Positions 1,218 to 14,484 of a stretch of DNA of 56,657 bases are shown here, one piece after another. Position numbers and translations under genes: made by a program. The stretch covers positions 1 through 56,657 of the forward strand of contig JAQXQS010000168.1 in the NCBI GenBank assembly GCA_029101305.1. The letters are read 5' to 3'. How positions within the stretch are numbered: position 1 is the stretch's first letter; the number at the start of each line of letters is the position of its first letter. Source of the DNA: Clostridia bacterium (GTDB taxonomy: Bacteria > Bacillota > Clostridia > Lachnospirales > Lachnospiraceae). The notes beneath the pieces were generated by a model, which was given only the letters and a program-made list of their open reading frames with translations, did no database searches and was not told the origin of the DNA.

Positions 1218-3080
1218 TCAATTCGGCAGACTGTCCCTCACACACAACACCCCATACCCAATCTCCTCATTGGGATACCTCCCAAACGCCGGAAGTGGCT
1301 TCGCTCCTCTCCTCAGATATGCCTTCACTTTTTCCCCATATAAATAGGGATCATTTCCACGCACGATTCCCCATTCCATCAGTAAAGCTGCCGCCCCGGT
1401 TACAAATGGAGTCGAAAATGAAGTACCCGAAAACCGGGCATACCTACCACCAGCTCTTGGCGCAAGAATATCCACCCCAGGTGCCACCAGATCTGGTTTG
1501 GGATAAGGTAAAAGACTGCTGCCTCTTCCTGAAAAATCAGCGTAAGCGTTTAGCCGGGCATCATAAGCCCCTACACTGATCACTCTTCTGGAAGTAGCTG
1601 GAATTGTTAACGTTCCCTGGGCCCGTGGAAGGTAAAATGCAGTCCCGGGATTCAAAGTTTTGCTGCCGGGAAGCCAAAGCGAATAATTTCCATTTTTGAT
1701 CTTTTCTGCTGTCAGAATAATTTTCCAAACGCCGCTGTCTACATAGCCATTTTCTACCAGAAAATCCACATAAATCTCCTGCGTCACATGATACGGTGCT
1801 GGTTTTCCATAATATACCAACAGCTTTGTATTCCCGAGCAGCCAGCGTTGCGCTCCCAGTATTTCATCCAATGGACCAACCCGCTCACCAGCTGGATTTT
1901 CTATATAAATTTCCATTTCATCTTCATAATCTTTCCACAATTGGACATTTAAGGCCGGCTCAAACGCACCTACTCCCAATTCAATTTCCTGCGTTTCCCC
2001 ATTTGAAATTTTCCCGCCATAATGAAGGGCATCATTTCCATTATTTCCCATCCCCACGCAGAGTACTGTTTTCCCCATACTTGAAACTGAATCCAGATAA
2101 GTTTCCACCAGGGAATCCCCTCTGTGTGATCCATAATTATTCCCAAAACTCAGATTGATCACAATAGGACGTCTCATCTCCAGCGCCTGCCTTACCAGGT
2201 AATCTACCCCTTGCATCAGTTCCGTTGTCCGTGGAAAAGAATCCTCTCTTGGAATTCCCATTTTTACAACCAGAAGATCACTTTCATAAGCAACTCCACG
2301 GTTCCTTGCCCCTTTTGAAAAATCACTTCCGGCAGCTACCCCAAGTACAGCAGTTCCATGTCCACTTCTGTCTTCAGACGCAACAAGGCGCCGCCCCTCC
2401 TGTATCGGAAGAGACAACGCCTCATTGATTTCCTCATTCGTATATTCAGTTCCTGTCAGATAGCCATCTGGCGGATTGCCTGGAATGCCCTGATCCCACA
2501 GACGCAAAATCCTGGATTTTCCATCTGCTGTGAGAAATGCAGGATGCCGGTAATCCACGCCGGAATCCACAATTCCCACTAATATGCCCTTTCCACTCAG
2601 CTGCAGGTTTCCGGGCTCATCACGCTGCACCTGGTTAATGCAGCTTGCCTCTTTGGAAAAATAATCTTCAAAATATAACCTGGCAGGCTTTTCTATAAAC
2701 TCGATCTGTGGCCTTTTTGAATATTCATCCAGCATACTTTCCGGAAGTGTAACAATTGCATATCCGCCAAGCAGCGGTACTACGGATATTCCAGATCCGC
2801 CAAGTATGGAATTTATCGTATTTTCGAATTCGCGAGATATAGAAATTGCATTTTTTCCTGTTTCATCAAGGATAGATGGTACAACATTATTTATAACATT
2901 TGAACCTCCCCCCAAAGATATATCTGCCTCTCTCTCTCCCACCATACTGTATTTTACTATCACATCCCACATACGTGTCTGCTGGTCATAACCAACATTC
3001 AGATTTTCTGATTTTTCCCGCTCTTCTGCTGTGGAATTCAGGGCAAGATTTAAAAGATTATCCAGTTTCTGATCTGGCAT
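1218..3080 (-). CDS. S8 family serine peptidase, CspABC-like subtilase
   Basis: A 620-residue subtilisin-type serine protease. The catalytic triad is visible: Asp172 in GIVDSGVDYRHP, His241 in DRSGHGTAVLGVAAG and Ser554 in FSGTSFSTPFVTGAAALL; the oxyanion Asn lies in GMGNNGN near 346. Residues 1-160 form a propeptide-like region with no classical signal peptide. Residues about 365-490 are an inserted beta-rich domain between the Asn and Ser motifs, as in the Csp germination proteases of Clostridia and their many vegetative paralogues. All three residues are present, so it should be active, unlike pseudoprotease CspC. The start has GGGAG 7 nt upstream. No spore gene lies beside it, so a germination role is not supported here; it could be a general cell-surface or cytoplasmic protease. 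Confidence 0.9.
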   Translation of the reverse strand: MPDQKLDNLLNLALNSTAEEREKSENLNVGYDQQTRMWDVIVKYSMVGEREADISLGGGSNVINNVVPSILDETGKNAISISREFENTINSILGGSGISVVPLLGGYAIVTLPESMLDEYSKRPQIEFIEKPARLYFEDYFSKEASCINQVQRDEPGNLQLSGKGILVGIVDSGVDYRHPAFLTADGKSRILRLWDQGIPGNPPDGYLTGTEYTNEEINEALSLPIQEGRRLVASEDRSGHGTAVLGVAAGSDFSKGARNRGVAYESDLLVVKMGIPREDSFPRTTELMQGVDYLVRQALEMRRPIVINLSFGNNYGSHRGDSLVETYLDSVSSMGKTVLCVGMGNNGNDALHYGGKISNGETQEIELGVGAFEPALNVQLWKDYEDEMEIYIENPAGERVGPLDEILGAQRWLLGNTKLLVYYGKPAPYHVTQEIYVDFLVENGYVDSGVWKIILTAEKIKNGNYSLWLPGSKTLNPGTAFYLPRAQGTLTIPATSRRVISVGAYDARLNAYADFSGRGSSLLPYPKPDLVAPGVDILAPRAGGRYARFSGTSFSTPFVTGAAALLMEWGIVRGNDPYLYGEKVKAYLRRGAKPLPAFGRYPNEEIGYGVLCVRDSLPN

Positions 3081-3139
3081 CTGTATTCTCCCTATAGCAA
3101 TTTTCTATTTTATTTTATGCAATAGCCCGATTACAGAAT

Positions 3140-4681
3140 TCAATCTTCTTGTTGACACACTTTCGGCTCTACCACATTTCCCTGTACAACGCCTCCCTGA
3201 TTTTTCCCTTTTCGCATTCCTCTGACTACCTGCACATTTCCAAGAATCAGATAATCCATCTCTCTCTTGGAAATCTTTGCGAAATTTTTCCTGGAAACAA
3301 AATAGAAAGTAACTCCCATAAGTACCCACACGATCAATGCAGCAAATGACTGTGGTGCCATAAATGCCGGTGAACCAGGTACGATCAGAAGGAGCAGGAT
3401 CAGCACGGAAATAATGCAGCCGCCCATGGCTACCGCCGGATGAATTCTGTTTGTATCTGTAGCGTCGCCGTATTTTTTCAAAAGAATATACGCACCTGCA
3501 CAGGTAAAGAAATATCCAAAAGCAGTACCAACAGAACACATATCAACAACCCATCCGATTACTTCCCGTCCAAAGAACGGACAAATACAGCAAATGATCA
3601 TTGTGAAAACAACACACACAGACGGTGTTTTATGCTCCGGATGAACCTTTTCAAAGGCAGATGGAAGCATCTTTGCTCTTGCCATGCCAAATAAGAGACG
3701 GCTGGACGTCATAAAGAATCCATTCATTCCTGTGAAAATACCCATACACACAGCCAGTGCTACGAAGCATACACCAATTTTTCCCATTGCCAGATCAAGA
3801 ATTGCACCGGTATGCCATTTTACTAGTACTCCACTTTCATCTGTCATTGTCAAAACCTGCTGCCAGGGAATAACACAATCTGTTACAAGTGCCATTGCCC
3901 CATAAATCAAAGCGCCTACAATAAGAGCTGAAATAATCAACAGCTTGCATTTTTGTGGTGGAAAATCATATTCTTCTGCTGCCTGTGGAATGCAATCAAA
4001 TCCAACGTAGAGAAATGGTGCAAGTGCCAGAATTGAAACAAAACCGCTTCCCAGTGTTTTTCCCTCTGCGCCATAGGCAGGCTGAAGATTTGCCGCATCA
4101 AAATGACCAGTTACAATTACACCGGCTACCGATACAACTACAGCTGCACACATAATAAGAACCATGATCAGCTGAAGATTTCCAACTGATTTTGCACCTT
4201 TATAATTCATGATTCCAAAGAGAATAATGAAAAACAGAGACAATCCAACTTCGCCCATATATACATCATATCCGGCAATGGTGTACAGATAACCTCTGTT
4301 AAAGACTCCTGGGAAAATATAGGATGCCAGTACAGGAAGTGCCGTTGCATTCAGTGCTACGATTGACAGATAGCCAAGAGACAGCATCCATCCACATATA
4401 TAAGAGGCTGTCCTTCCAAATCCTTTATAAGCATAAGCAAATTCTCCGCCCGCTACCGGGAACTTTGCAATCATATAAGAATAACTATAACCGACTACGA
4501 TCATAAGTAATCCACCTGCCAGGAAGCCAAGGAACAAAGGAAGTGGTCCGCCTGCACGTTCAGTCCAGAGACCACCCTGTATGAAACAGCCCCATCCAAT
4601 AATTGAGCCAACTGCTACAGCCCATATGGAACCAGGCCCCATAGATTTTTTTAATTTTGTCCTTTTCTTTTTTTCACCCAT
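3140..4681 (-). CDS. APC-superfamily amino acid permease
   Basis: A 513-residue polytopic membrane protein of the APC amino acid/polyamine permease superfamily. The first helix carries the family signature (SIWAVAVGSIIGWGCFIQGG, Gly-rich unwound segment) and about twelve hydrophobic segments follow. PVAGGEFAYAYKGFGR is the typical loop after helix 2. The ATG at 4681 is chosen because AGGAGG lies 6 nt upstream; the longer frame would begin with a TTG inside that ribosome site. It follows the P-II-like gene by only 18 nt and is almost surely co-transcribed with it. Substrate cannot be read from sequence. The neighbouring transaminase, alcohol dehydrogenase and sulfonate-type exporter make taurine or another omega-amino compound a reasonable guess. 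Confidence 0.88.
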   Translation of the reverse strand: MGEKKKRTKLKKSMGPGSIWAVAVGSIIGWGCFIQGGLWTERAGGPLPLFLGFLAGGLLMIVVGYSYSYMIAKFPVAGGEFAYAYKGFGRTASYICGWMLSLGYLSIVALNATALPVLASYIFPGVFNRGYLYTIAGYDVYMGEVGLSLFFIILFGIMNYKGAKSVGNLQLIMVLIMCAAVVVSVAGVIVTGHFDAANLQPAYGAEGKTLGSGFVSILALAPFLYVGFDCIPQAAEEYDFPPQKCKLLIISALIVGALIYGAMALVTDCVIPWQQVLTMTDESGVLVKWHTGAILDLAMGKIGVCFVALAVCMGIFTGMNGFFMTSSRLLFGMARAKMLPSAFEKVHPEHKTPSVCVVFTMIICCICPFFGREVIGWVVDMCSVGTAFGYFFTCAGAYILLKKYGDATDTNRIHPAVAMGGCIISVLILLLLIVPGSPAFMAPQSFAALIVWVLMGVTFYFVSRKNFAKISKREMDYLILGNVQVVRGMRKGKNQGGVVQGNVVEPKVCQQED

Positions 4682-4699
4682 ATGCAACCTCCTGATGCG

Positions 4700-5035
4700 T
4701 CATTCGTCATCATCTTCTCTTGTCTCTTCACTAATCGTATATGCCTCGGCAATATCTGAAACAAAAATCTTTCCGTCACCATAATGACCATATTTGCCGC
4801 TTTTCGCGCTGTTGATGATAATATCTACAACTTCATCCTTTTCTTTATCCCCGACTGTAATATATAACATACTTTTTGCCATTTCCTGATAAAGCACATC
4901 TCCTACCTGGATTCCTTTTTCTTTTCCCCTTCCGGAAATAGCCCATTTGGAAAAAGCATAATACCCTTCTGCTTCCAAAGCTTTGATAACATCCATAACC
5001 TTTTCCGGGCGGACAATCGCTGTGATCAACTTCAT
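4700..5035 (-). CDS. P-II family signalling protein (GlnB/GlnK-like)
   Basis: A 111-residue protein of P-II size. It begins MKLITAIVRPEKVMDVIKAL, matching the P-II N terminus, and has the C-terminal block GDGKIFVSDIAEAYTI, which forms the nucleotide-binding and trimer core. P-II proteins sense ATP/ADP and 2-oxoglutarate and gate transporters or enzymes through the T-loop. The T-loop region (about 37-55) lacks the Tyr of the classic YRG(A/S)EY uridylylation site, so covalent control is unlikely. The start at 5035 gives the standard length and has AGGGAGA about 8 nt upstream; an in-frame ATG at 5062 would add nine residues. It lies directly before an APC permease rather than the usual AmtB, suggesting that it controls that permease. 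Confidence 0.85.
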   Translation of the reverse strand: MKLITAIVRPEKVMDVIKALEAEGYYAFSKWAISGRGKEKGIQVGDVLYQEMAKSMLYITVGDKEKDEVVDIIINSAKSGKYGHYGDGKIFVSDIAEAYTISEETREDDDE

Positions 5036-5077
5036 ACATTTCTCTCCCTTCTTCTCATCCATAAATCACCCAATCGC

Positions 5078-5106
5078 GCATATCTGCTTGTGCAGACATC
5101 CCTGTG
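5078..5106. repeat. Degenerate copy of an interspersed palindromic repeat
   Basis: The core CTGCTTGTGCAGACATCC resembles the better copies at 10011-10039, 40476-40511 and 44341-44377 (about 27 of 37 positions match by eye over the longer unit). It forms a short hairpin CTGC-TTGT-GCAG. It sits between the terminator of the dehydrogenase operon and the P-II gene. Confidence 0.45.
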
Positions 5107-5111
5107 AATGC

Positions 5112-5143
5112 AAAAAGAGCCCAGATACCTCGTATCCGGACTC
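5112..5143 (-). terminator. Intrinsic terminator after the alcohol dehydrogenase gene
   Basis: A 12-bp arm pair, 5117-5128 with 5132-5143 (two mismatches), and a 3-nt loop; on the minus strand the stem is followed by TTTTTG. It separates the transaminase/dehydrogenase unit from the P-II/permease unit. Confidence 0.75.
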
Positions 5144-5220
5144 CTTTGTCACTTTTTTATGGTACTATTATTATCCGTAAATTGCAAGTCTTTTTCTTTT
5201 ATTTATTAGATTCATCCGAT

Positions 5221-6348
5221 TTATTTTCCAGCCAGATACCGGTACATCTCATCTAACATTTCATCTGTAATTTCTACCGGGTTGTTGTATAGATTTGGAT
5301 GTCTGCTAATGTGAACAAGTTCTGCTATCTGAGCATCATCCAGTTCTAAATCTTTCAGGTCACATCTCAGTCTCATTTTCTTCTTTAATTCAAAAACTGC
5401 GTCTGCCATCTCATCTGCATCTTTAAAGCCTAGCTTTTCGGCAAATTCCTGTACCCGTTCTTTGCCTTCTCCCTTTGCATTGATTCTTATAAAGTAATCC
5501 AGTGTAAGACCACAGGCCTCGCCATGAGGAATACGATAAATATTGGTCAGCGGAAAAGAGCATGCATGGGAAGAAGTTGTTTTGGGCAGAGTAAAAGCTA
5601 ATCCGGCAATCAAAGATGCCTCACACATTTTTTCCCTTGCTTCTTCATCCTCAGGATTTTCATATACTCTGTAAAGATATTTAAATACCAGATCTGCTGC
5701 ATGCATCGCAAGTACATCACAGATTGGCTGATGTCCTTTGCTCCAGTATCCTTCGATTGCATGGGAAAGAACATCAATTCCGGTTCCCGCAGTAATATGA
5801 GGGGGCATCGTATACGTCAGCTCCGGATCAATAATAGCTGCTTCCGGATAAAAGCCTTCTGACACGATAGGCGCCTTTTTCCCATTGGCATGATCTGAAA
5901 GTACAGACACACAGGTTACTTCGCTTCCGGTTCCTGCTGTGGTTGGAATTGCAATCAGAGGTAAATGCTCCTGTGGCATTGCCACTCCTGTTCCGTGATA
6001 TTTACGGATGGAATCCGGGGTTAGAGCCACACTTGCAGCTGCTTTCGCACAGTCCATAGGGCTTCCGCCTCCAAGGGCGATTACAAAACCGATATTTTTC
6101 TGACGGATTACTTCTGCACAGGCATCTACCTCTGTAACGTCCGGATTCGGTGAAACATCTCCGAAGGACGCTACGATCAATCCGTCTGATTCTTTTATGA
6201 GCTTTTCTGCCAGACCGCTTTTAAAGAAAAACGGTCCGGCTACCAGAAGGCCTCGTTCACATCCAAGTTCTCTGGCTATTTTCTTAATTTCATGTACTCT
6301 GCCTTTGCCGAAATGAATTTTCACCGGCTGTAGATAATCCCAGTTCAT
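5221..6348 (-). CDS. Iron-containing (group III) alcohol dehydrogenase; candidate sulfoacetaldehyde reductase
   Basis: A 375-residue NAD(P)H-dependent alcohol dehydrogenase of the iron-activated family. The nucleotide loop GGGSPMDCAKA and the block PTTAGTGSEVT are present. Metal ligands are visible: Asp and His in GIDVLSHAIEGY, His in TTSSHACSF, and His in RIPHGEACGL. The start at 6348 is chosen over the longest frame (6405) because GGAGG lies 6 nt upstream and the longer form would overlap the previous gene. It follows the class III aminotransferase by 13 nt, so both should be one transcript. In that context it would reduce the aldehyde the transaminase makes. The same family includes the SarD/TauF sulfoacetaldehyde reductases of gut bacteria. 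Lactaldehyde or succinate semialdehyde reduction are alternatives. Confidence 0.9.
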   Translation of the reverse strand: MNWDYLQPVKIHFGKGRVHEIKKIARELGCERGLLVAGPFFFKSGLAEKLIKESDGLIVASFGDVSPNPDVTEVDACAEVIRQKNIGFVIALGGGSPMDCAKAAASVALTPDSIRKYHGTGVAMPQEHLPLIAIPTTAGTGSEVTCVSVLSDHANGKKAPIVSEGFYPEAAIIDPELTYTMPPHITAGTGIDVLSHAIEGYWSKGHQPICDVLAMHAADLVFKYLYRVYENPEDEEAREKMCEASLIAGLAFTLPKTTSSHACSFPLTNIYRIPHGEACGLTLDYFIRINAKGEGKERVQEFAEKLGFKDADEMADAVFELKKKMRLRCDLKDLELDDAQIAELVHISRHPNLYNNPVEITDEMLDEMYRYLAGK

Positions 6349-6361
6349 AGGCTGCCTCCGT

Positions 6362-7699
6362 TTAGTCACAGAATTTCTCGTCCACCATAGTAAGTACTTC
6401 ATCAAGGATCGGAAGATATTCTTCCAGTTCCTCTTTTGTGATGATCAGTGGCGGGCAGATTTCAATAAAGTTCTCACGTCCAAAGGTTGCAAATCCACGT
6501 TTCTTTAACTCTGCAAAAATCCAAGGCATTACAGGTCCAGGTACACCATATTCCTGCATTGGCTCTCTGGTTTCTTTGTTTTTCACCACTTCAAGTGCGC
6601 CAAACAAACCGATGCATCTTGCCTCACCAATACATTTATGTTTCTTTACCATTTCATCCATAAATGGTGCTACGATTTTATGCATTTCGGCTACATGACC
6701 TTCAATGTCATGTTCCTGGTAATATTTCATTGCAGCTACACCAGCAGCACATGCAAGAGTATGTCCACTGTAGGTAAGTCCGCACTGAAGAACATGGTCT
6801 TCAAAATATTCTGCCACTTTTTTGCTTACGATGCATCCGCCAAGCTGTACATAACCACAGGTAACACCTTTGGCAAATGTAATAATATCTGGTTTGATAT
6901 CAAAGTTCATAAATGCGAACATTTTTCCGGTACGGTAAAATCCTGCCATAACCTCGTCACAGATTAAAAGGATTCCATATTTATCACACAAAGCACGTAC
7001 ACCTTCCATATATCCGTCTGGCGGAAGGATTACGCCGTTGGCACCTACAATAGATTCCATCAGGATTGCTGCAACATTTCCCGGGCCCTCATATCTGAGC
7101 TGCAGATCCAATGCATCCAGATATTTCTTTGTTACTTCAGCATCATCTACCCCTTTTGTATATCCGTCACGATACATCTGTGGGTTCATGAAGTGTACGA
7201 ATCCGTTGGCACCACCGATTTCAGCAGCATATCTTCTCCAGTCACCTGATGCATTGGAAGCTCCCAGTGTAGCTCCATGATAACTTCTGTAGCAGGAAAA
7301 GATCTTGGTTCTTCCAGTTACCATACGTGCCATTTTGATCGCATTCTCATTGGATTCTGCGCCGCCATTTGTGAAGAAAACTCTTTTATAGGTATCTGCA
7401 CCGGCAGCTTCTACCAGCATTTTTGCCAGTGTACTCTTTGGTTCTGATGCATAAGCCGGAGCCATAAAGCACATCTTGTCAGCCTGTTCTTTAATTGCTT
7501 CTACTATTTCAGGCAGCTCATGTCCAAGGTTTGAGCAGACCAGAAGGGATGCCATATCAGCATATTTTTTTCCATCATAATCGTAAAAATAAATTCCCTG
7601 GGCTCTTTCTACCGGTAAAGCATCAACTCCTGATTTTGACCATGACTGCATTACATAATCTTTGTGCATCTGTGCAATTTCTTTTCCTGTTAAGCTCAT
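6362..7699 (-). CDS. Class III (omega) aminotransferase; candidate taurine aminotransferase
   Basis: A 445-residue PLP-dependent fold-type I aminotransferase of subgroup III. Motifs in order: TNGGAESNENAIKMAR (107-125), SYHGATLGAS with the cofactor-stacking Tyr (139-148), CDEVMAGFYRTG with PLP-binding Asp248, and ITFAKGVTCGY with Schiff-base Lys277. Members move an amino group from omega-amino compounds (GABA, beta-alanine, putrescine, taurine) to pyruvate or 2-oxoglutarate. The start has AGAGGAGG upstream. Gene order, with a downstream Fe-ADH and a nearby TauE/SafE exporter, resembles taurine-nitrogen loci in which Toa or Tpa makes sulfoacetaldehyde. The substrate call is inference; the fold and cofactor chemistry are secure. 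Confidence 0.9.
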   Translation of the reverse strand: MSLTGKEIAQMHKDYVMQSWSKSGVDALPVERAQGIYFYDYDGKKYADMASLLVCSNLGHELPEIVEAIKEQADKMCFMAPAYASEPKSTLAKMLVEAAGADTYKRVFFTNGGAESNENAIKMARMVTGRTKIFSCYRSYHGATLGASNASGDWRRYAAEIGGANGFVHFMNPQMYRDGYTKGVDDAEVTKKYLDALDLQLRYEGPGNVAAILMESIVGANGVILPPDGYMEGVRALCDKYGILLICDEVMAGFYRTGKMFAFMNFDIKPDIITFAKGVTCGYVQLGGCIVSKKVAEYFEDHVLQCGLTYSGHTLACAAGVAAMKYYQEHDIEGHVAEMHKIVAPFMDEMVKKHKCIGEARCIGLFGALEVVKNKETREPMQEYGVPGPVMPWIFAELKKRGFATFGRENFIEICPPLIITKEELEEYLPILDEVLTMVDEKFCD

Positions 7700-7752
7700 A
7701 GTAATTTCCTCCTCTTTATCTCTGCTTTCTAATTTCTCATTCCAGATTCAGG

Positions 7753-7774
7753 GTTTGTTTTGCGGTAAACAAAC
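7753..7774 (-). promoter_or_regulatory. Perfect inverted repeat, probable PucR operator before the aminotransferase
   Basis: GTTTGTTT-TGCGGT-AAACAAAC is an exact 8-bp dyad with a 6-nt spacer, 54-75 nt upstream of the aminotransferase start. The same sequence core recurs upstream of the exporter (9974-9996) and pucR (9191-9205). The other parts of 7700-7940 are the ribosome site and the pucR terminator. Confidence 0.6.
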
Positions 7775-7792
7775 TTATTTTTAATGATAAAA

Positions 7793-7836
7793 GCAAGAAA
7801 GGCGCCCGGTTCACATTTGCTTGTGAACCAGACGCC
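7793..7836 (-). terminator. Intrinsic terminator after pucR
   Basis: The stem GGCGcccGGTTCAC / GTGAACCagaCGCC lies at 7801-7836; on the minus strand it is followed by TTTCTTGCTTTT. It ends the pucR transcript before the aminotransferase operon begins. Confidence 0.7.
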
Positions 7837-7940
7837 TTTGTCTTATCTGAGTCATATATTACTCTTAACACAGGTAGCCCGCAATAGACATGTATCCAAT
7901 TATTTTTGTGCTACAGCACAATTCCCGGGAGATTTGTATA

Positions 7941-9149
7941 TCAATTGTCTACAATATCGCCTCTTCCCATCTCATACAAGAGAAATCCCAGATTCAGCTG
8001 AAAACGGACTTCAAAGCTGGATAAATCCTTTTCTAATATTTCTGACACTTTTCCAATCTTGTAGTTAACCGTATTTCGATGAACAATCAACTCCTGTGCA
8101 GTATCTTTAACACTGCAGTCATGCTTAAGATAGCACCTTAATACATTAACCAGATCCGTATGATTTATTTCATCATATTCATACAATGGAAATACGGTAT
8201 CTCGCATATATTCCAGTACCACATCTTTATCGGTAAGTGTGAGCAACACTTTATAAATCCCCAGATTTTTGTAGAAAAGCAGTTTTCCGGAATCTGTTTT
8301 GATTTCTCCCGGAACATTGCAGGAAGTCAGCAGATCAGCCATCTTTTCTCCAAATCCATAGCTTTTATAGAGCTGCCGGATTCCGTTAACAGGCTTGCTT
8401 ACACTTACAAAAACCTGTTCATTTCCATGGGTTACCAGGCATAATCTATCAAAAATCCGCTCCACTGTTTTCTGGCAGATTTCTGACGGATAATCACATA
8501 AGACCATCAGAATCTGTTTTTCCTGTGCACAGCATAAAATTCCGCTGTAATTGCAGCGCAGATGACTGCTTAAGGTGGAGGCAATCTGCTCCAGGCGCGC
8601 ACCTGTCACCTGACTTTTCTCTTCTTTTACACGGATATTCACAACCGTGTAATCACTTTCTACAAAATAGCCTTTACGCATCAAAGCGGAAACATACAGT
8701 TCTTCCTGTCCAGGACAAAGAAATGCATTGTTTAATGCCGCAGTTACTTCAATGGTATTCTGCTGTTCTTTCGTTATGGCAAAACAAATGATCCGCATGA
8801 TTTCAGCCATGTGGATCTTCCATGGGACACGAAACACCGGAAATCCTTTTTCATTGGCAAAATCAATTACATCCTGGCCGATTTCACTAATATACGGGCC
8901 AATGTTGATCACGATTCCACTTGCATGATTTCTCCAGACTTCTTTTACCAGTCTGAGCAATGTCAGATTTTCATTCAGTCCAAGTCCGGTTGTGAAAGTC
9001 AGCTCCTGTCCCTGAAGGAATTCAGAAATCGTATCACTGTCTACCATATGAGTCCAGGATACCTCATGATCCAGGCCTTGTTCTCCTGCTACCAGCTCCA
9101 TTTCCAGATGCTGTACCTGTTTCATAATCTCACGCAATATTACAGCCAT
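7941..9149 (-). CDS. PucR family transcriptional regulator
   Basis: A 402-residue regulator. The N-terminal PucR domain is recognisable (ELVAGEQGLDHEVSWTHMVD, then GQELTFTTGLGL, with a conserved hydrophobic sensory core to about residue 130). The C-terminal HTH_30 is clear: SVKDTAQELIVHRNTVNYKI near residues 350-372, followed by the usual F-x-h-x-L-x-L-G-F end. Family members activate catabolic genes, often for purines or amino compounds used as nitrogen. The GTG at 9182 has no ribosome site; the ATG at 9149 has AGAAAGG 9 nt upstream and is preferred. It lies between the aminotransferase/dehydrogenase unit and the exporter gene, and a shared motif occurs before all three, so it probably controls them and itself. 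Confidence 0.9.
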   Translation of the reverse strand: MAVILREIMKQVQHLEMELVAGEQGLDHEVSWTHMVDSDTISEFLQGQELTFTTGLGLNENLTLLRLVKEVWRNHASGIVINIGPYISEIGQDVIDFANEKGFPVFRVPWKIHMAEIMRIICFAITKEQQNTIEVTAALNNAFLCPGQEELYVSALMRKGYFVESDYTVVNIRVKEEKSQVTGARLEQIASTLSSHLRCNYSGILCCAQEKQILMVLCDYPSEICQKTVERIFDRLCLVTHGNEQVFVSVSKPVNGIRQLYKSYGFGEKMADLLTSCNVPGEIKTDSGKLLFYKNLGIYKVLLTLTDKDVVLEYMRDTVFPLYEYDEINHTDLVNVLRCYLKHDCSVKDTAQELIVHRNTVNYKIGKVSEILEKDLSSFEVRFQLNLGFLLYEMGRGDIVDN

Positions 9150-9180
9150 TCCCATACGCCTTTCTTTTGTTTCTGATGCC

Positions 9181-9205
9181 ACAATGCCATGGATTGTTCT
9201 GCGGC
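9181..9205 (-). promoter_or_regulatory. Candidate autoregulatory operator of pucR
   Basis: GGATTGTTCTGCGGC (9191-9205) matches the left half and core of the motif found before the aminotransferase and exporter. A separate dyad ACAAT-N7-ATTGT centred on CATG (9181-9197) overlaps it. It lies 42-56 nt upstream of the chosen pucR start. Confidence 0.4.
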
Positions 9206-9240
9206 TATGCTACTCCCACAATCCTTCAATCATGAGGAAT

Positions 9241-9951
9241 CTATACAATTAAGGATATTCCGGATATTAACAAGAGTGCATATGTCAGATTCAGAAATAC
9301 CTTCTGCGAAACTCTCTTCACCAGTTTCTTTCCGATCCAGGTGGCTGCAAATAAGGGCACAATACTTATTAAAATCAGACGGATATCAGCCGGTTCCACC
9401 AGTCCGTTTCGTACCTGCGTAAACATCAGACAGGTGTTTAATACCACCCAGATTGGCGCAACAGTTGCGCGAAATTCTTCTTTATCCTTTAAGACCTGTG
9501 TTGCATAAATCACAAGCAACGCTCCGCCAGATACAAACATTCCATGAATAATTCCTGCCAAAAGTAAAATAATTCCAAGCATAACAGGCGGAAGCTGTTT
9601 CTGGCTGTGGATGCATAGATTCTTCAGGGCAACTGCCACGATCACAATACCGTACATTGTTAAAAGGACTTCTTCTGACTCTACAATCTGGCAGATCTGT
9701 ATGCCGGCAAACATTCCCACCAGCATAAAACAGGACATTTTTATAAATTCTTTCCAGTTAATATGCCTGTATCCGGTCACTGCTATCATCAAACCAGAAA
9801 GCCATGCCATAACATTCAAAACCACTTTCGCATGATCCAGCCCCAGTAAATATACAGATGGCGGCATGGCAAGCACTGTACCTGCAAATCCTGTAATTGC
9901 CTGAATTACATTAGAAACAAACAACACGATCAAAAAAAATAGTTCTCTCAT
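9241..9951 (-). CDS. TauE/SafE family sulfite/sulfonate exporter-like membrane protein
   Basis: A 236-residue integral membrane protein with about eight hydrophobic segments in two similar halves. The first half begins with FVSNVIQAITGFAGTVLAMP; the second has IIHGMFVSGGALLVIYATQ. This two-repeat plan is that of TauE/SafE (DUF81) carriers, which export sulfite, sulfoacetate, isethionate or related organic anions. The start has AAAAGGAAG 6 nt upstream. It is divergent from nothing and lies in line just upstream of pucR, in a locus with a transaminase and Fe-ADH. A natural reading is export of the sulfonated alcohol left after taurine is deaminated. A generic anion carrier is possible. Confidence 0.85.
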   Translation of the reverse strand: MRELFFLIVLFVSNVIQAITGFAGTVLAMPPSVYLLGLDHAKVVLNVMAWLSGLMIAVTGYRHINWKEFIKMSCFMLVGMFAGIQICQIVESEEVLLTMYGIVIVAVALKNLCIHSQKQLPPVMLGIILLLAGIIHGMFVSGGALLVIYATQVLKDKEEFRATVAPIWVVLNTCLMFTQVRNGLVEPADIRLILISIVPLFAATWIGKKLVKRVSQKVFLNLTYALLLISGISLIV

Positions 9952-9973
9952 AACATTCTTCCTTTTCTGTGTC

Positions 9974-9996
9974 GTCTGTTCACCGCAAAACCAATA
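9974..9996 (-). promoter_or_regulatory. Probable PucR operator before the TauE/SafE gene
   Basis: On the plus strand GTCTGTTCACCGCAAAACC... matches the complement of the 7753-7774 dyad at about 18 of 22 positions, including the exact decamer GTTTTGCGGT read on the minus strand. It starts 23 nt upstream of the exporter start codon. Confidence 0.55.
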
Positions 9997-10064
9997 TAAC
10001 TATTCAGCTATGGTGATGTCTGCGTAAGCAGACATGTCCGTTTAGTTATTCGTGTAATAGTTAT
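9996..10064. repeat. Interspersed palindromic repeat with outer arms
   Basis: Outer arms ATAACTATT (9996-10004) and AATAGTTAT (10056-10064) enclose the repeat core TGTCTGC-GTAA-GCAGACA, whose sequence recurs at 40476-40511 and 44341-44377. In RNA it would form a long hairpin in the leader of the TauE/SafE transcript. Confidence 0.6.
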
Positions 10065-10074
10065 AATTTGACTT

Positions 10075-10083
10075 ATTATAGCA
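10075..10083 (-). promoter_or_regulatory. Extended -10 promoter of the TauE/SafE gene
   Basis: TGCTATAAT on the minus strand is a full extended -10 element; the -35 region is poor. Transcription would start near 10068, just before the repeat hairpin. Confidence 0.4.
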
Positions 10084-10106
10084 CTAACGTGTTAAAGAAT
10101 CCACAT

Positions 10107-10137
10107 AAAAATTAATCAAGCTACATACTTCTTGATT
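10107..10137 (-). terminator. Intrinsic terminator after the MATE gene
   Basis: AATCAAG and CTTGATT (7 bp, 10-nt loop) are followed on the minus strand by AATTTTTAT. Confidence 0.65.
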
Positions 10138-10165
10138 CGTTTTTGCCATTCTTTTCCATCTCCTC

Positions 10166-11533
10166 TCAGTTAAGACGATTTACTTTATTTTTCAGAATTT
10201 TCTTTAAGAATTTATAGCCAACCAGGCAGGAAACCGCCTCTGTTATCGGAAATGCCCACCAGATCAGAGAAACTGTGGTCTGCCCATTTCTTACAAAAAT
10301 GGAAAAAATTCTAGCCAGCGGCAAGATGATAACCAGCTGTCGCAAGAGCGAGATGAGCAACGATTCCAGACCACCGTTCAGTGCCTGATAAATCCCCTGA
10401 TATGCCACATTAATTCCTGCAAACAGGAAACTGATGGAAATAATCCGCATCGCACTGATAAAATATTCTCTTGAAGAGCCGGCATTAAATAACGTTGCAA
10501 ATGCCCCTGGGAAAATTTCCGTGATCGCAATTCCCAGTATCATTAATGCGATGGTATACATAAGGCCATATTTGATTCCATCCTGTATTCTCTTTTTGCT
10601 CCGCATTCCATAGGCAAATGCAATGATCGGGGTAATCGCATCCCTAAGGCCAAAGGCAAGGAAAAGAACAAACTGCTGTACTTTATAAAACAGACCATAT
10701 GCAGTCTGTGCAAACGGGCTGAATTTCAGGATCAGGTTCATAGCGTAAACCATAATAGACATTAATGCCTGCGCAATGATTGCTGGAAGTCCAATCGCAT
10801 AGATTTCTTTTATAATGCCGCCCTCCGGCTTCATGTATTTCACTCCATGTTCAAACTCTTTATTCAGTTTTGTATGGAAAATAAACAGTAAAACAGCGGA
10901 CGCCACCTGTCCGATAACGGTTGCATATGCTGCACCTTTTACGCCCATTTCCGGAACCGGTCCGAGACCATAGATCATGATCGGGTCAAGAATTATATTA
11001 ACAACAGCACCTGTAATCTGTCCGATGGTAGAATAAAGGGAACGTCCTGTTGCCTGTAATAACTTTTCAAATAAAGAAAAGAAGACGATTCCAAAGGAGA
11101 TCACACAACAGATTCTGAGATAATCAACTCCCATCTCCAATACTTCCGGATCTACTGTCTGAGATGAAATGTATGCTTTCACCCCAAAGATGCCAAACAG
11201 CAGACATACTGCATAGATGATCACTCCCAGAAACAGACTGTTTCCAGCCACCCTGGCAGCTTTTTTACTGTTTCCCTGTCCCAGTGTCCTTGCCAGAAGC
11301 GCATTGGTTCCTACTCCGGTTCCAACTCCCAGGGCAACCATAAGCATCTGAACCGGGAATACCAGAGTCAGCGCGTTAAGTGCTGCCTCGCTGCCCACTC
11401 TCATGTTTCCTACAAATGCACTGTCTACAATATTATAGACAGCCTGTAATGCCATGGATAAGATCATGGGAATTCCCATCTGGATCATCAGTTTATTCAC
11501 TGGCATATCCTTCATCTTGTTACTTTTCGCCAT
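10166..11533 (-). CDS. MATE family multidrug/sodium antiporter
   Basis: A 455-residue membrane protein with about twelve helices. The N-terminal motif [20 protein letters not shown], followed by AFVGNM, and the repeated second-half motif [19 protein letters not shown] are typical of the MepA/DinF branch of MATE Na+- or H+-coupled drug exporters. The length is normal and the start has GGAGGAG 10 nt upstream. The gene stands alone; its leader carries two tandem intrinsic terminators directly after a strong promoter, so expression is probably controlled by readthrough. The transported compound is unknown. Confidence 0.9.
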
Positions 11534-13308: not shown

Positions 13309-13944
13309 TCAGTCACCGCGGAGAACCACGCGGATTCTCTTATAAATAAAGAACACGATCACTGAAGTCAGTGTGTATTTAAATAAGTTGAATGGTACAA
13401 GGATCATAATTGCAAAAGTAAGAAGGTTGGTCACACCGCTGTGTACAGCTGCTCCCATCTCAATAAACGCCTCAATAGGCATTCCAAATGCTTTCCCATA
13501 TGCAGGAAGCAGGACAAATGCATTCACAAAGCATGCAAGAACCGTAGTAAGAACAACACCTGCTGCCATACCTGCTACTGCGTGCGCTCTTGTCTTCTTA
13601 TGCTGGTAACGGTAAATAAGACCTGCCGGAACTACATAGGAACAGCCGAAAAGAAAGTTTGCAATATCTCCTACGCCTGCTGTCACCGTACCCTTGGTTA
13701 CCAGATGTACCAGAATCTTCACCAGCTCGATCAGCATACCTGCTACCGGCCCCATCGCAAAAGAACCGATCAGTGCCGGAATCTCTGAAAAATCCAGCTG
13801 ATAAAATGATGGTGCAAGAAATGGAAGCGGTATCTCAAAATTCATCAAAACACCTGCTACTGCTCCAAGCATTGCCACCTGGGCAATGGTTCTGGTACGG
13901 CTTCTTTCCATTACGTTTCCATTTCTGATTACTTGTTCGCTCAT
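13309..13944 (-). CDS. ribU: Riboflavin ECF transporter substrate-binding (S) component RibU
   Basis: A 211-residue membrane protein with about six helices. The motif FYQLDFSEIPALIGSFAMGP and the following GMLIELVKILVHL are typical of the RibU family S component, which binds riboflavin and joins a shared EcfAA'T energy module (not in this window). ATG 13944 has AAGGAG 8 nt upstream, while the ATG at 13950 is only 2 nt from it. An FMN riboswitch with its own terminator lies upstream, which independently supports flavin uptake. A MITE-like element is inserted between the riboswitch terminator and the ribosome site. It supplies flavin that the ApbE/FMN_bind locus further right would consume. Confidence 0.92.
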   Translation of the reverse strand: MSEQVIRNGNVMERSRTRTIAQVAMLGAVAGVLMNFEIPLPFLAPSFYQLDFSEIPALIGSFAMGPVAGMLIELVKILVHLVTKGTVTAGVGDIANFLFGCSYVVPAGLIYRYQHKKTRAHAVAGMAAGVVLTTVLACFVNAFVLLPAYGKAFGMPIEAFIEMGAAVHSGVTNLLTFAIMILVPFNLFKYTLTSVIVFFIYKRIRVVLRGD

Positions 13945-13970
13945 ACTCATCGCTCCTTAAATTATAATAT

Positions 13971-14263: not shown

Positions 14264-14310
14264 AGTGAGCACGTACAAATAACTATCAACTTATCTGATT
14301 ATTCTGCGCG

Positions 14311-14484
14311 TTCTTCTCTCATCCAGACTGTACTGTCGGTTTTGGAATCTCACCAAATCAGCCGCCAAAGCGGGTCGCGGACTATACCGCCGGTAGGGAA
14401 TTTCGAAATCCGAAAATGAAGGTTCAACGCTTTCTATATCAAAAACGCGTTTCCCTCAAGGACTTGATCACCCTGCCCCGAAGA
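14311..14484 (-). promoter_or_regulatory. FMN riboswitch (RFN element)
   Basis: The minus strand carries the conserved RFN blocks in order: CTTCGGGGCAGGGTGA (near 14484), AATTCCCTACCGGCGGTATA, GTCCGCGACCCGC, GATTTGGTGAGATTCCAAAA, CCGACAGTACAGTCTGGATG and GAGAAG (near 14311). It binds FMN and turns off ribU when flavin is abundant. The P2 loop, between GGGTGA and AATTCCC, is enlarged by about 60 nt containing small hairpins (TCAAG-TC-CTTGA; AACGC...GCGTT). Everything between 13945 and 14563 is leader: riboswitch, terminator, MITE and promoter. Confidence 0.93.

Follow-up and report, generated by a model that had tools for sequence, protein, structure and literature searches.

A six-gene Blautia cassette with its own P-II protein that probably scavenges taurine nitrogen and discards isethionate

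The contig JAQXQS010000168.1 (C168), analyzed here over its full length of 56,657 nucleotides and called the window, belongs to a 3.52-Mb draft genome, 93.7% complete, of a gut Blautia. Its minus strand carries six genes, transcribed in the order tauE-pucR-toa-tauF-PII-APC permease. To judge from their sequences, these six genes very probably form a cassette that scavenges nitrogen from taurine and discards the sulfonate as isethionate. The original prediction, made from the letters of this contig alone, had grouped the aminotransferase, the dehydrogenase, the PucR regulator and the TauE/SafE exporter into a candidate taurine locus, and this grouping was borne out: all six genes lie on the same strand, and tblastn recovered the same block, in the same order and with the APC permease as its last gene, in four further loci (L004-L007). 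The block is also carried by records under the names Blautia massiliensis and B. schinkii. The same prediction had set the permease and the P-II gene merely beside the locus; both are present, but they are part of the conserved block itself. In a profile search of the window proteins, all named families matched far over their cut-offs (Table 1).

The evidence for the substrate comes from the two enzymes. When the aminotransferase is compared with sequences of solved structure, it scores 780 bits with PDB entry 6jix, to which it is 75% identical over 444 amino acids, and 229 bits with the next of 195 PDB sequences. Entry 6jix is named taurine:2-oxoglutarate aminotransferase, and we take it to be the enzyme of Bifidobacterium kashiwanohense. 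The abbreviation BkToa used in PMC6616044 fits this assignment. A tree of the family was weakly resolved and held one characterized row only, so that the argument is carried by the PDB margins. By these margins the window enzyme is set clearly apart from the GABA, putrescine and pyruvate-type omega-aminotransferases, and its predicted assignment to the taurine type (Toa) is upheld.

The dehydrogenase scores 574 bits with PDB entries 6jko and 6jkp, titled methanol dehydrogenase, and 190 bits with the next of 42 sequences. Residues 192, 196, 252, 257, 261, 265 and 275 of these entries are D, Q, F, T, H, F and H. The same seven residues are named as the active site of BkTauF in PMC6616044, which reports two structures. 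Because the residues agree and two structures are reported, we infer that 6jko and 6jkp are BkTauF, a characterized sulfoacetaldehyde reductase. The window enzyme is 69% identical to it and has D, H, F, T, H, F and H at these positions, six of the seven being the same; the one exchange, of Gln196 for histidine, has been reported for a number of TauF homologues (PMC6616044). It thus carries the full metal- and substrate-binding set of BkTauF (D192, Q/H196, F252, T257, H261, F265/Y, H275). The original prediction had allowed a reductase of either the SarD or the TauF type. The TauF type stands, whereas SarD identity was rejected, the score with NCBIfam model NF050025 being 202 bits against an equivalog cut-off of 700. 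By PDB margins, neither enzyme sides with GABA, putrescine, lactaldehyde or propanediol enzymes; both are clearly nearest to taurine-pathway structures, and the overall prediction was found largely right.

As to the fate of the sulfonate, the prediction had noted the lack of Xsc and IslA genes in the window. This holds, and it extends to the assembled genome as far as tested: by the tests run, no C-S cleaving enzyme of either type was found in the 93.7% complete genome. Three glycyl radical proteins were found there, none of them IslA-like. An 841-amino acid glycyl radical enzyme on contig C219 was considered as an IslA candidate on account of its plausible length, and was rejected since it scores 1341 bits with the diol dehydratase of PDB entry 5i2a against 403 bits with IslA. 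Another, pyruvate formate-lyase-like protein reaches 983 bits against a cut-off of 994 in a partial reading, and the third is NrdD. Likewise rejected were Xsc, with a best genome score of 359 against a cut-off of 676, and a TauABC system elsewhere in the genome, the best score for TauA (the taurine ABC binding protein) being 64.5 against 304. Because IslA, Xsc and TauA were not found, excretion of isethionate through TauE is the best reading. The TauE/SafE family member within the cluster is a putative sulfonate exporter, and its family, its position and the absence of a C-S cleaving enzyme among the proteins found suggest that it exports isethionate with the C-S bond intact.

In the scheme that we propose, the APC permease would import taurine, and Toa would form glutamate and sulfoacetaldehyde by transferring the amino group of taurine to 2-oxoglutarate. 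TauF would then reduce the sulfoacetaldehyde with NADH to isethionate, which TauE would export uncleaved. PucR would probably turn toa on through a palindrome upstream of this gene, and two terminator-type leaders together with a NifI1-type P-II protein would add control by nitrogen status. The P-II protein would most likely gate the adjoining permease, or an enzyme of the block, at nitrogen plenty. The presence of P-II in the block, together with a leader element that recurs before pyrG-gltB of another Blautia (see below), provides a link to nitrogen that is independent of the enzymes.

Table 1. Genes and candidate regulatory elements of the cassette, in the order of transcription.
Feature	Position	Strand	Details
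TauE/SafE-family membrane protein, putative isethionate exporter	9241-9951	-	PF01925 92.4 bits, cut-off 32.6
PucR-type transcription regulator	7941-9182	-	PF07905 98.5 bits, PF13556 65 bits
Palindrome TTGTGCT-N2-AGCACAA, 16 bp	7906-7921		between pucR and toa, upstream of toa; candidate PucR operator
toa leader: terminator-like hairpin with T-rich tail, its 5' arm overlapped by a GAC-AAAGGC-GTC mini-hairpin	7790-7842	-	hairpin -30.2 kcal/mol
toa, class III aminotransferase	6362-7699	-	PF00202 286 bits
tauF, Fe-ADH (metal-dependent alcohol dehydrogenase family)	5221-6348 (or 6405)	-	PF00465 162 bits, PF25137 147 bits
P-II leader: GAC-AAAGGA-GTC and terminator-like hairpin	5112-5150	-	hairpin -20.3 kcal/mol; before P-II-APC
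P-II, lone NifI1-type	4700-5035 (or 5062)	-	PF00543 69 bits
APC-family amino acid permease, putative taurine importer	3140-4687	-	PF13520 144 bits

Of the two possible starts of tauF, the ATG at 6348 (MNWDYLQPV..., the start used by homologues) is likelier than the TTG at 6405, and for P-II the start at 5035 is likelier than that at 5062.

The distribution of the cassette was followed from TauF. The best 80 of 178 relatives were considered, and gene contexts were examined for the 15 with a TauF identity of at least 63% (L004-L018), tblastn results with the window genes being considered for L004-L023. Among these 15 loci, toa adjoins tauF in 13 (not in L011 and L012; partial in L014), PucR stands beside toa in 10 (partial in L010 and L015), TauE stands beside toa in seven (L004-L007, L009, L010, L018) and P-II follows in seven (L004-L009, L018; partial in L008). 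The contigs of L010, L013 and L015 end soon after tauF, which makes the absence of genes there weak. At E<=1e-100, TauF was found in 3 of the 64 genus genomes, in 7 of 397 genomes in a sample of the family and in 4 of 391 in a sample of the class (the window genome being counted in each), and it is thus a patchy trait. The protease and MATE genes that flank the cassette in the window have no tblastn match in L004-L007, and the listed neighbors of L004 and L006 differ from one another and from those of the window. In genome G009, which has the same cassette genes as L004, the counterpart of the MATE gene bordering the window cassette is found at 1.69 Mb, away from the cassette at 2.16 Mb. A search for a known insertion site was unsuccessful, the cassette-flanking genes being far apart in the genomes examined, so that no clean empty site was shown. 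Together, the differing flanks and the rarity within the genus suggest that the cassette has moved as a block. In L009, an amidohydrolase gene (PF07969; 13065-14669) follows the genes for a GltS-like symporter and P-II; its product may liberate an amine that serves the pathway as a substrate.

TauF relatives were also met in other company. At two of the family matches, L110 and L113, toa-tauF is accompanied by genes for an ABC transporter and a glycyl radical enzyme. Of the two binding proteins, that of L110 is accepted by the aliphatic-sulfonate model and falls short of the taurine model (235 against 304 bits), and that of L113 was placed in the NMT1 family only. The L113 glycyl radical enzyme scores 1248 bits with 5ymr (which we take to be IseG), 1216 with 7kq3 (isethionate sulfite-lyase) and 1142 with 6lon, and the L110 and L113 enzymes both exceed the cut-off of the NCBIfam sulfopropanediol model; cleavage of isethionate is likely at these loci, though not proven. 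In a third setting (L117-L120), tauF lies beside transketolase halves, and Pfam assignments for L117 add an RpiB-type isomerase and a TauE protein. More broadly, in L117-L120, L109 and L011 the company of TauF relatives includes transketolase halves or genes for an RpiB-type isomerase, GH31 or TauE, an assignment made partly by eye, and these loci probably serve the breakdown of sulfoquinovose to isethionate. TauF thus seems to perform the same reaction in three settings, namely toa cassettes, glycyl radical loci and transketolase loci.

The window genome has three P-II matches: two in fusions with ammonium transporters (L115, L116), and the cassette protein. The best PDB match of the latter is chain H of 9p1x (87 bits; next sequence, 60), whose two types of P-II chain suggest a NifI complex. 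Relatives at E<=1e-14 occur in 18 of the 397 family genomes, namely the window genome, G016 and 16 others. In all 16 others the relative comes first in a tandem pair of P-II genes; the pair is followed by a nitrogenase component 1-like gene in 12 of 16 and preceded by a NifH-like gene in at least 10. These neighbors were named by eye, with Pfam run only for L124, L130 and L136. In a tree of 41 rows, from which L008 was excluded as partial and for which the program flagged long branches, the seven toa-linked P-II proteins form one clade (support 99/97) on the NifI1 side. They share a 23-row branch (99/100) with 16 I1 rows, apart from GlnB/GlnK and from NifI2; the names I1 and I2 denote the order in tandem pairs, of which 12 lie beside nitrogenase genes. 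The cassette protein thus resembles the NifI1/NifI2 regulators of nitrogenase in its place in the tree and its best structural match, and differs from them in standing beside a permease, with no NifI2 partner among the three P-II matches of the genome and no nitrogenase component 1 found there. In the other four of the 16 (L123, L128, L131 and L134), the tandem NifI1/NifI2-like pair has an NMT1-type ABC binding protein behind it and no adjoining nitrogenase gene, and in L123 it also stands beside an amidase. In these four loci, P-II control of transporters for other nitrogen sources is possible.

The toa-linked clade spans loci with the APC permease (window, L004-L007) and loci with a GltS-like symporter (PF03616) between tauF and P-II (L009, L018). 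That P-II stays while the transporter changes fits a gate for whichever transporter adjoins, or a target among the constant genes. In GlnK, Gln39 binds the Mg of Mg-ATP-2-oxoglutarate (PMC8395244). The aligned position is Glu in the window and L004-L007, whereas the NifI1 rows as well as L008, L009 and L018 have Gln; a motif count over the 120 homologues listed of 1390 gave 80 Glu, 30 Gln and 10 unreadable cases. NifI1,2 is known to block nitrogenase, a block that 2-oxoglutarate relieves (PMC9765008). A tentative proposal, which we advance as an idea and hold to be somewhat less than an even bet, is that a lone NifI1, its 2-oxoglutarate site altered in the Blautia branch by the change of Gln39 to Glu, was recruited to police taurine nitrogen scavenging. 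It would gate the adjoining transporter directly, as GlnK gates AmtB, and would have stayed with toa-tauF while the transporter was swapped between APC and GltS-like types.

The palindrome between pucR and toa is the sole exact match in the window, with one further site at two mismatches; at up to two mismatches a mean of 0.38 sites is expected by chance, and two or more matches arose in 5 of 100 shuffles. It is conserved in place in L004-L007 by alignment, with variants recognized by eye in L008, L009, L013 and L015-L018, and it is likely to be the PucR operator. The whole 246-nucleotide toa leader has a folding z score of -4.7. In this leader, no Rfam riboswitch or other Rfam family reached the gathering threshold, and three weaker matches within 3000-10400 seemed due to chance. 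The leader element recurs before toa in L004-L009 and L018 and is missing there in L010, L013 and L015-L017. The P-II leader is also found in L004, L005 and L007, and is missing in L006, where P-II closely trails tauF. Position 1 (A) and position 4 (G) of the hexaloop are kept in most leaders; the loop starts with G before toa in L008 and L018 and before P-II in L004 and L005.

A strict GAC-hexaloop-GTC pattern gave 21 distinct matches in 181 sources of 2.12 Mb in all (some overlapping). By a cut-off for the terminator-like fold that was chosen after the first cases had been seen, 12 of the 21 have such a fold: seven before toa (the L005 leader, identical to that of L004, being counted once), four before P-II and one before pyrG-gltB of Blautia G014. 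In 400 kb drawn evenly from G009, the strict pattern with a terminator was found 0 times, against once in the reversed control; it is rare, and no enrichment is claimed. A broader hexaloop-plus-terminator pattern was dismissed as noise (18 matches in the same 400 kb against 25 reversed). In G014, the pyrG-gltB leader is a terminator-overlapping mini-hairpin (L159:5278, plus strand), and glnN, for glutamine synthetase III, is preceded by two tandem hairpins with the hexaloops AAAGGC and AAAGAT and an overlapping terminator (L159:2800-2877, minus strand). The glnN leader resembles the targets of ANTAR antiterminators, which have two hexaloop hairpins, with A at loop position 1 and G at position 4, overlapping a terminator, mostly before nitrogen genes (PMC3369931). 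The cassette leaders are alike in having a mini-hairpin with a hexanucleotide loop that overlaps a terminator before nitrogen genes, but the ANTAR model requires two hairpins and the cassette leaders show one, no second hairpin of this type being recognized by eye in the toa leaders. Because only one hairpin was recognized, the toa leader is regarded as a candidate attenuator linked to nitrogen rather than as an ANTAR target.

Several observations weigh against taurine nitrogen scavenging with export of isethionate. At 93.7% completeness, a gene that seems absent may be missing from the assembly. The APC permease has no characterized close relative (nearest PDB entries 5oqt, 99 bits, and 6f34, 96 bits), and the substrates of the TauE family vary, the window TauE matching no PDB entry at E<=0.001. 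With Blautia producta among its members, a synthetic community yielded no isethionate from taurine (PMC7692227), although the strain may or may not bear the cassette. Since Glu replaces Gln39, it is doubtful that the Blautia P-II is a simple 2-oxoglutarate sensor. Finally, the TauF relatives of L109 and L117 have the same active-site residues, those of L118 and L119 having Tyr at 265. Because such same-residue relatives sit in sulfo-transketolase-like loci, the residues of TauF cannot separate taurine from sulfoquinovose as the source of sulfoacetaldehyde, and they leave taurine unproven. It is the neighboring toa, not the residues of TauF, that points to taurine.

Class III aminotransferases are often broad, which lends some weight to the otherwise unlikely case that a different small omega-amine, for instance beta-alanine or homotaurine, is the substrate of the cassette, the semialdehyde being reduced to an alcohol for export and the nitrogen kept. 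BkTauF retains 15% activity with 3HPA and 5% with 3-hydroxypropane-1-sulfonate (PMC6616044). However, Toa and TauF match the taurine pair far above any other solved enzyme, and an exporter of the TauE family suits a sulfonate. Much less probable still is the use of taurine for sulfur or as an electron sink, with a glycyl radical enzyme cleaving isethionate to sulfite inside the cell. This is the arrangement suggested by L110 and L113, where toa-tauF is joined by an ABC transporter and a glycyl radical enzyme of the sulfonate type. In the window genome, by contrast, none of the three glycyl radical proteins found is IslA-like, no ABC taurine binding protein exceeds its cut-off, and the cassette has a TauE-family exporter and P-II instead. 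Least probable of all, with hardly any weight, is that TauF acts as SqwF in the breakdown of sulfoquinovose by the sulfo-transketolase route, the aminotransferase being incidental. SqwGH, SqwI, SqwF and SqwE are given for this route (PMC12890257), and the L117-L120 relatives do lie beside transketolase halves (by Pfam for L117 only). Yet the block has no transketolase or RpiB-type isomerase, and toa adjoins tauF throughout most of L004-L018.

The core of the taurine pathway has already been published for B. kashiwanohense (PMC6616044), whose toa-tauF cluster encodes the Toa and TauF relatives described above and is predicted to assimilate taurine nitrogen and to secrete isethionate. Similar clusters are said there to occur in strict anaerobes, including Clostridia. 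Compared with the text of that paper, figures aside, Blautia differs in having a fixed six-gene block with P-II, an APC permease and PucR. The IsfD-type pathway of taurine-nitrogen assimilation shares the chemistry, with Toa, a sulfoacetaldehyde reductase and an isethionate exporter (PMC6616044), but its reductase IsfD belongs to the short-chain dehydrogenases and its taurine enters through TauABC, whereas Blautia has a metal-dependent alcohol dehydrogenase and an APC permease. In the taurine respiration of Bilophila wadsworthia (Tpa-SarD-IslA), transamination is likewise followed by reduction to isethionate, which is cleaved there, while no IslA was found in the window genome. SarD is only distantly related, at 28% identity to BkTauF (PMC6616044); the Bilophila enzyme is, confusingly, also called TauF in PMC6453916. 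SqwF and SqwE of the sulfo-transketolase route share the last reaction and a sulfonate exporter with the cassette, SqwF also yielding isethionate (PMC12890257), and TauF relatives occur in such loci (L117-L120); the difference is that sulfoacetaldehyde comes from sulfoquinovose there and would come from taurine in the cassette. For a P-II protein in a taurine locus, no report was found among the open-licence papers listed in the searches made. Nor did these searches turn up the lone NifI1-type P-II of a toa cassette, the GAC-hexaloop-GTC leaders or the conserved palindrome.

Two further features of the window lie outside the cassette. A gene for a CspB-type germination protease (1218-3080, minus strand) is uninterrupted, as are its matches in G014, G045 and G062. 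The corresponding gene of Blautia G009, G016 and G017 is split into two pieces about 20-22 kb apart (L181, L182; G009:C4:3130537-3153740). Just ahead of the second piece in G009 end two serine-recombinase-like genes, of which one was confirmed by Pfam and one named by eye, an arrangement that resembles an interrupting element of the type excised during sporulation. An FMN riboswitch (81 bits; 14307-14421, minus strand) lies upstream of a riboflavin-transporter-like gene (13309-13950, named by eye).

Isethionate feeds sulfite-reducing gut bacteria that produce hydrogen sulfide, and fermenters bearing TauF have been named as its possible missing supplier (PMC6616044). The six-gene locus provides named candidates for such suppliers in a common gut genus, and it would offer a new setting, outside nitrogen fixation, for a P-II protein of the NifI1 type.

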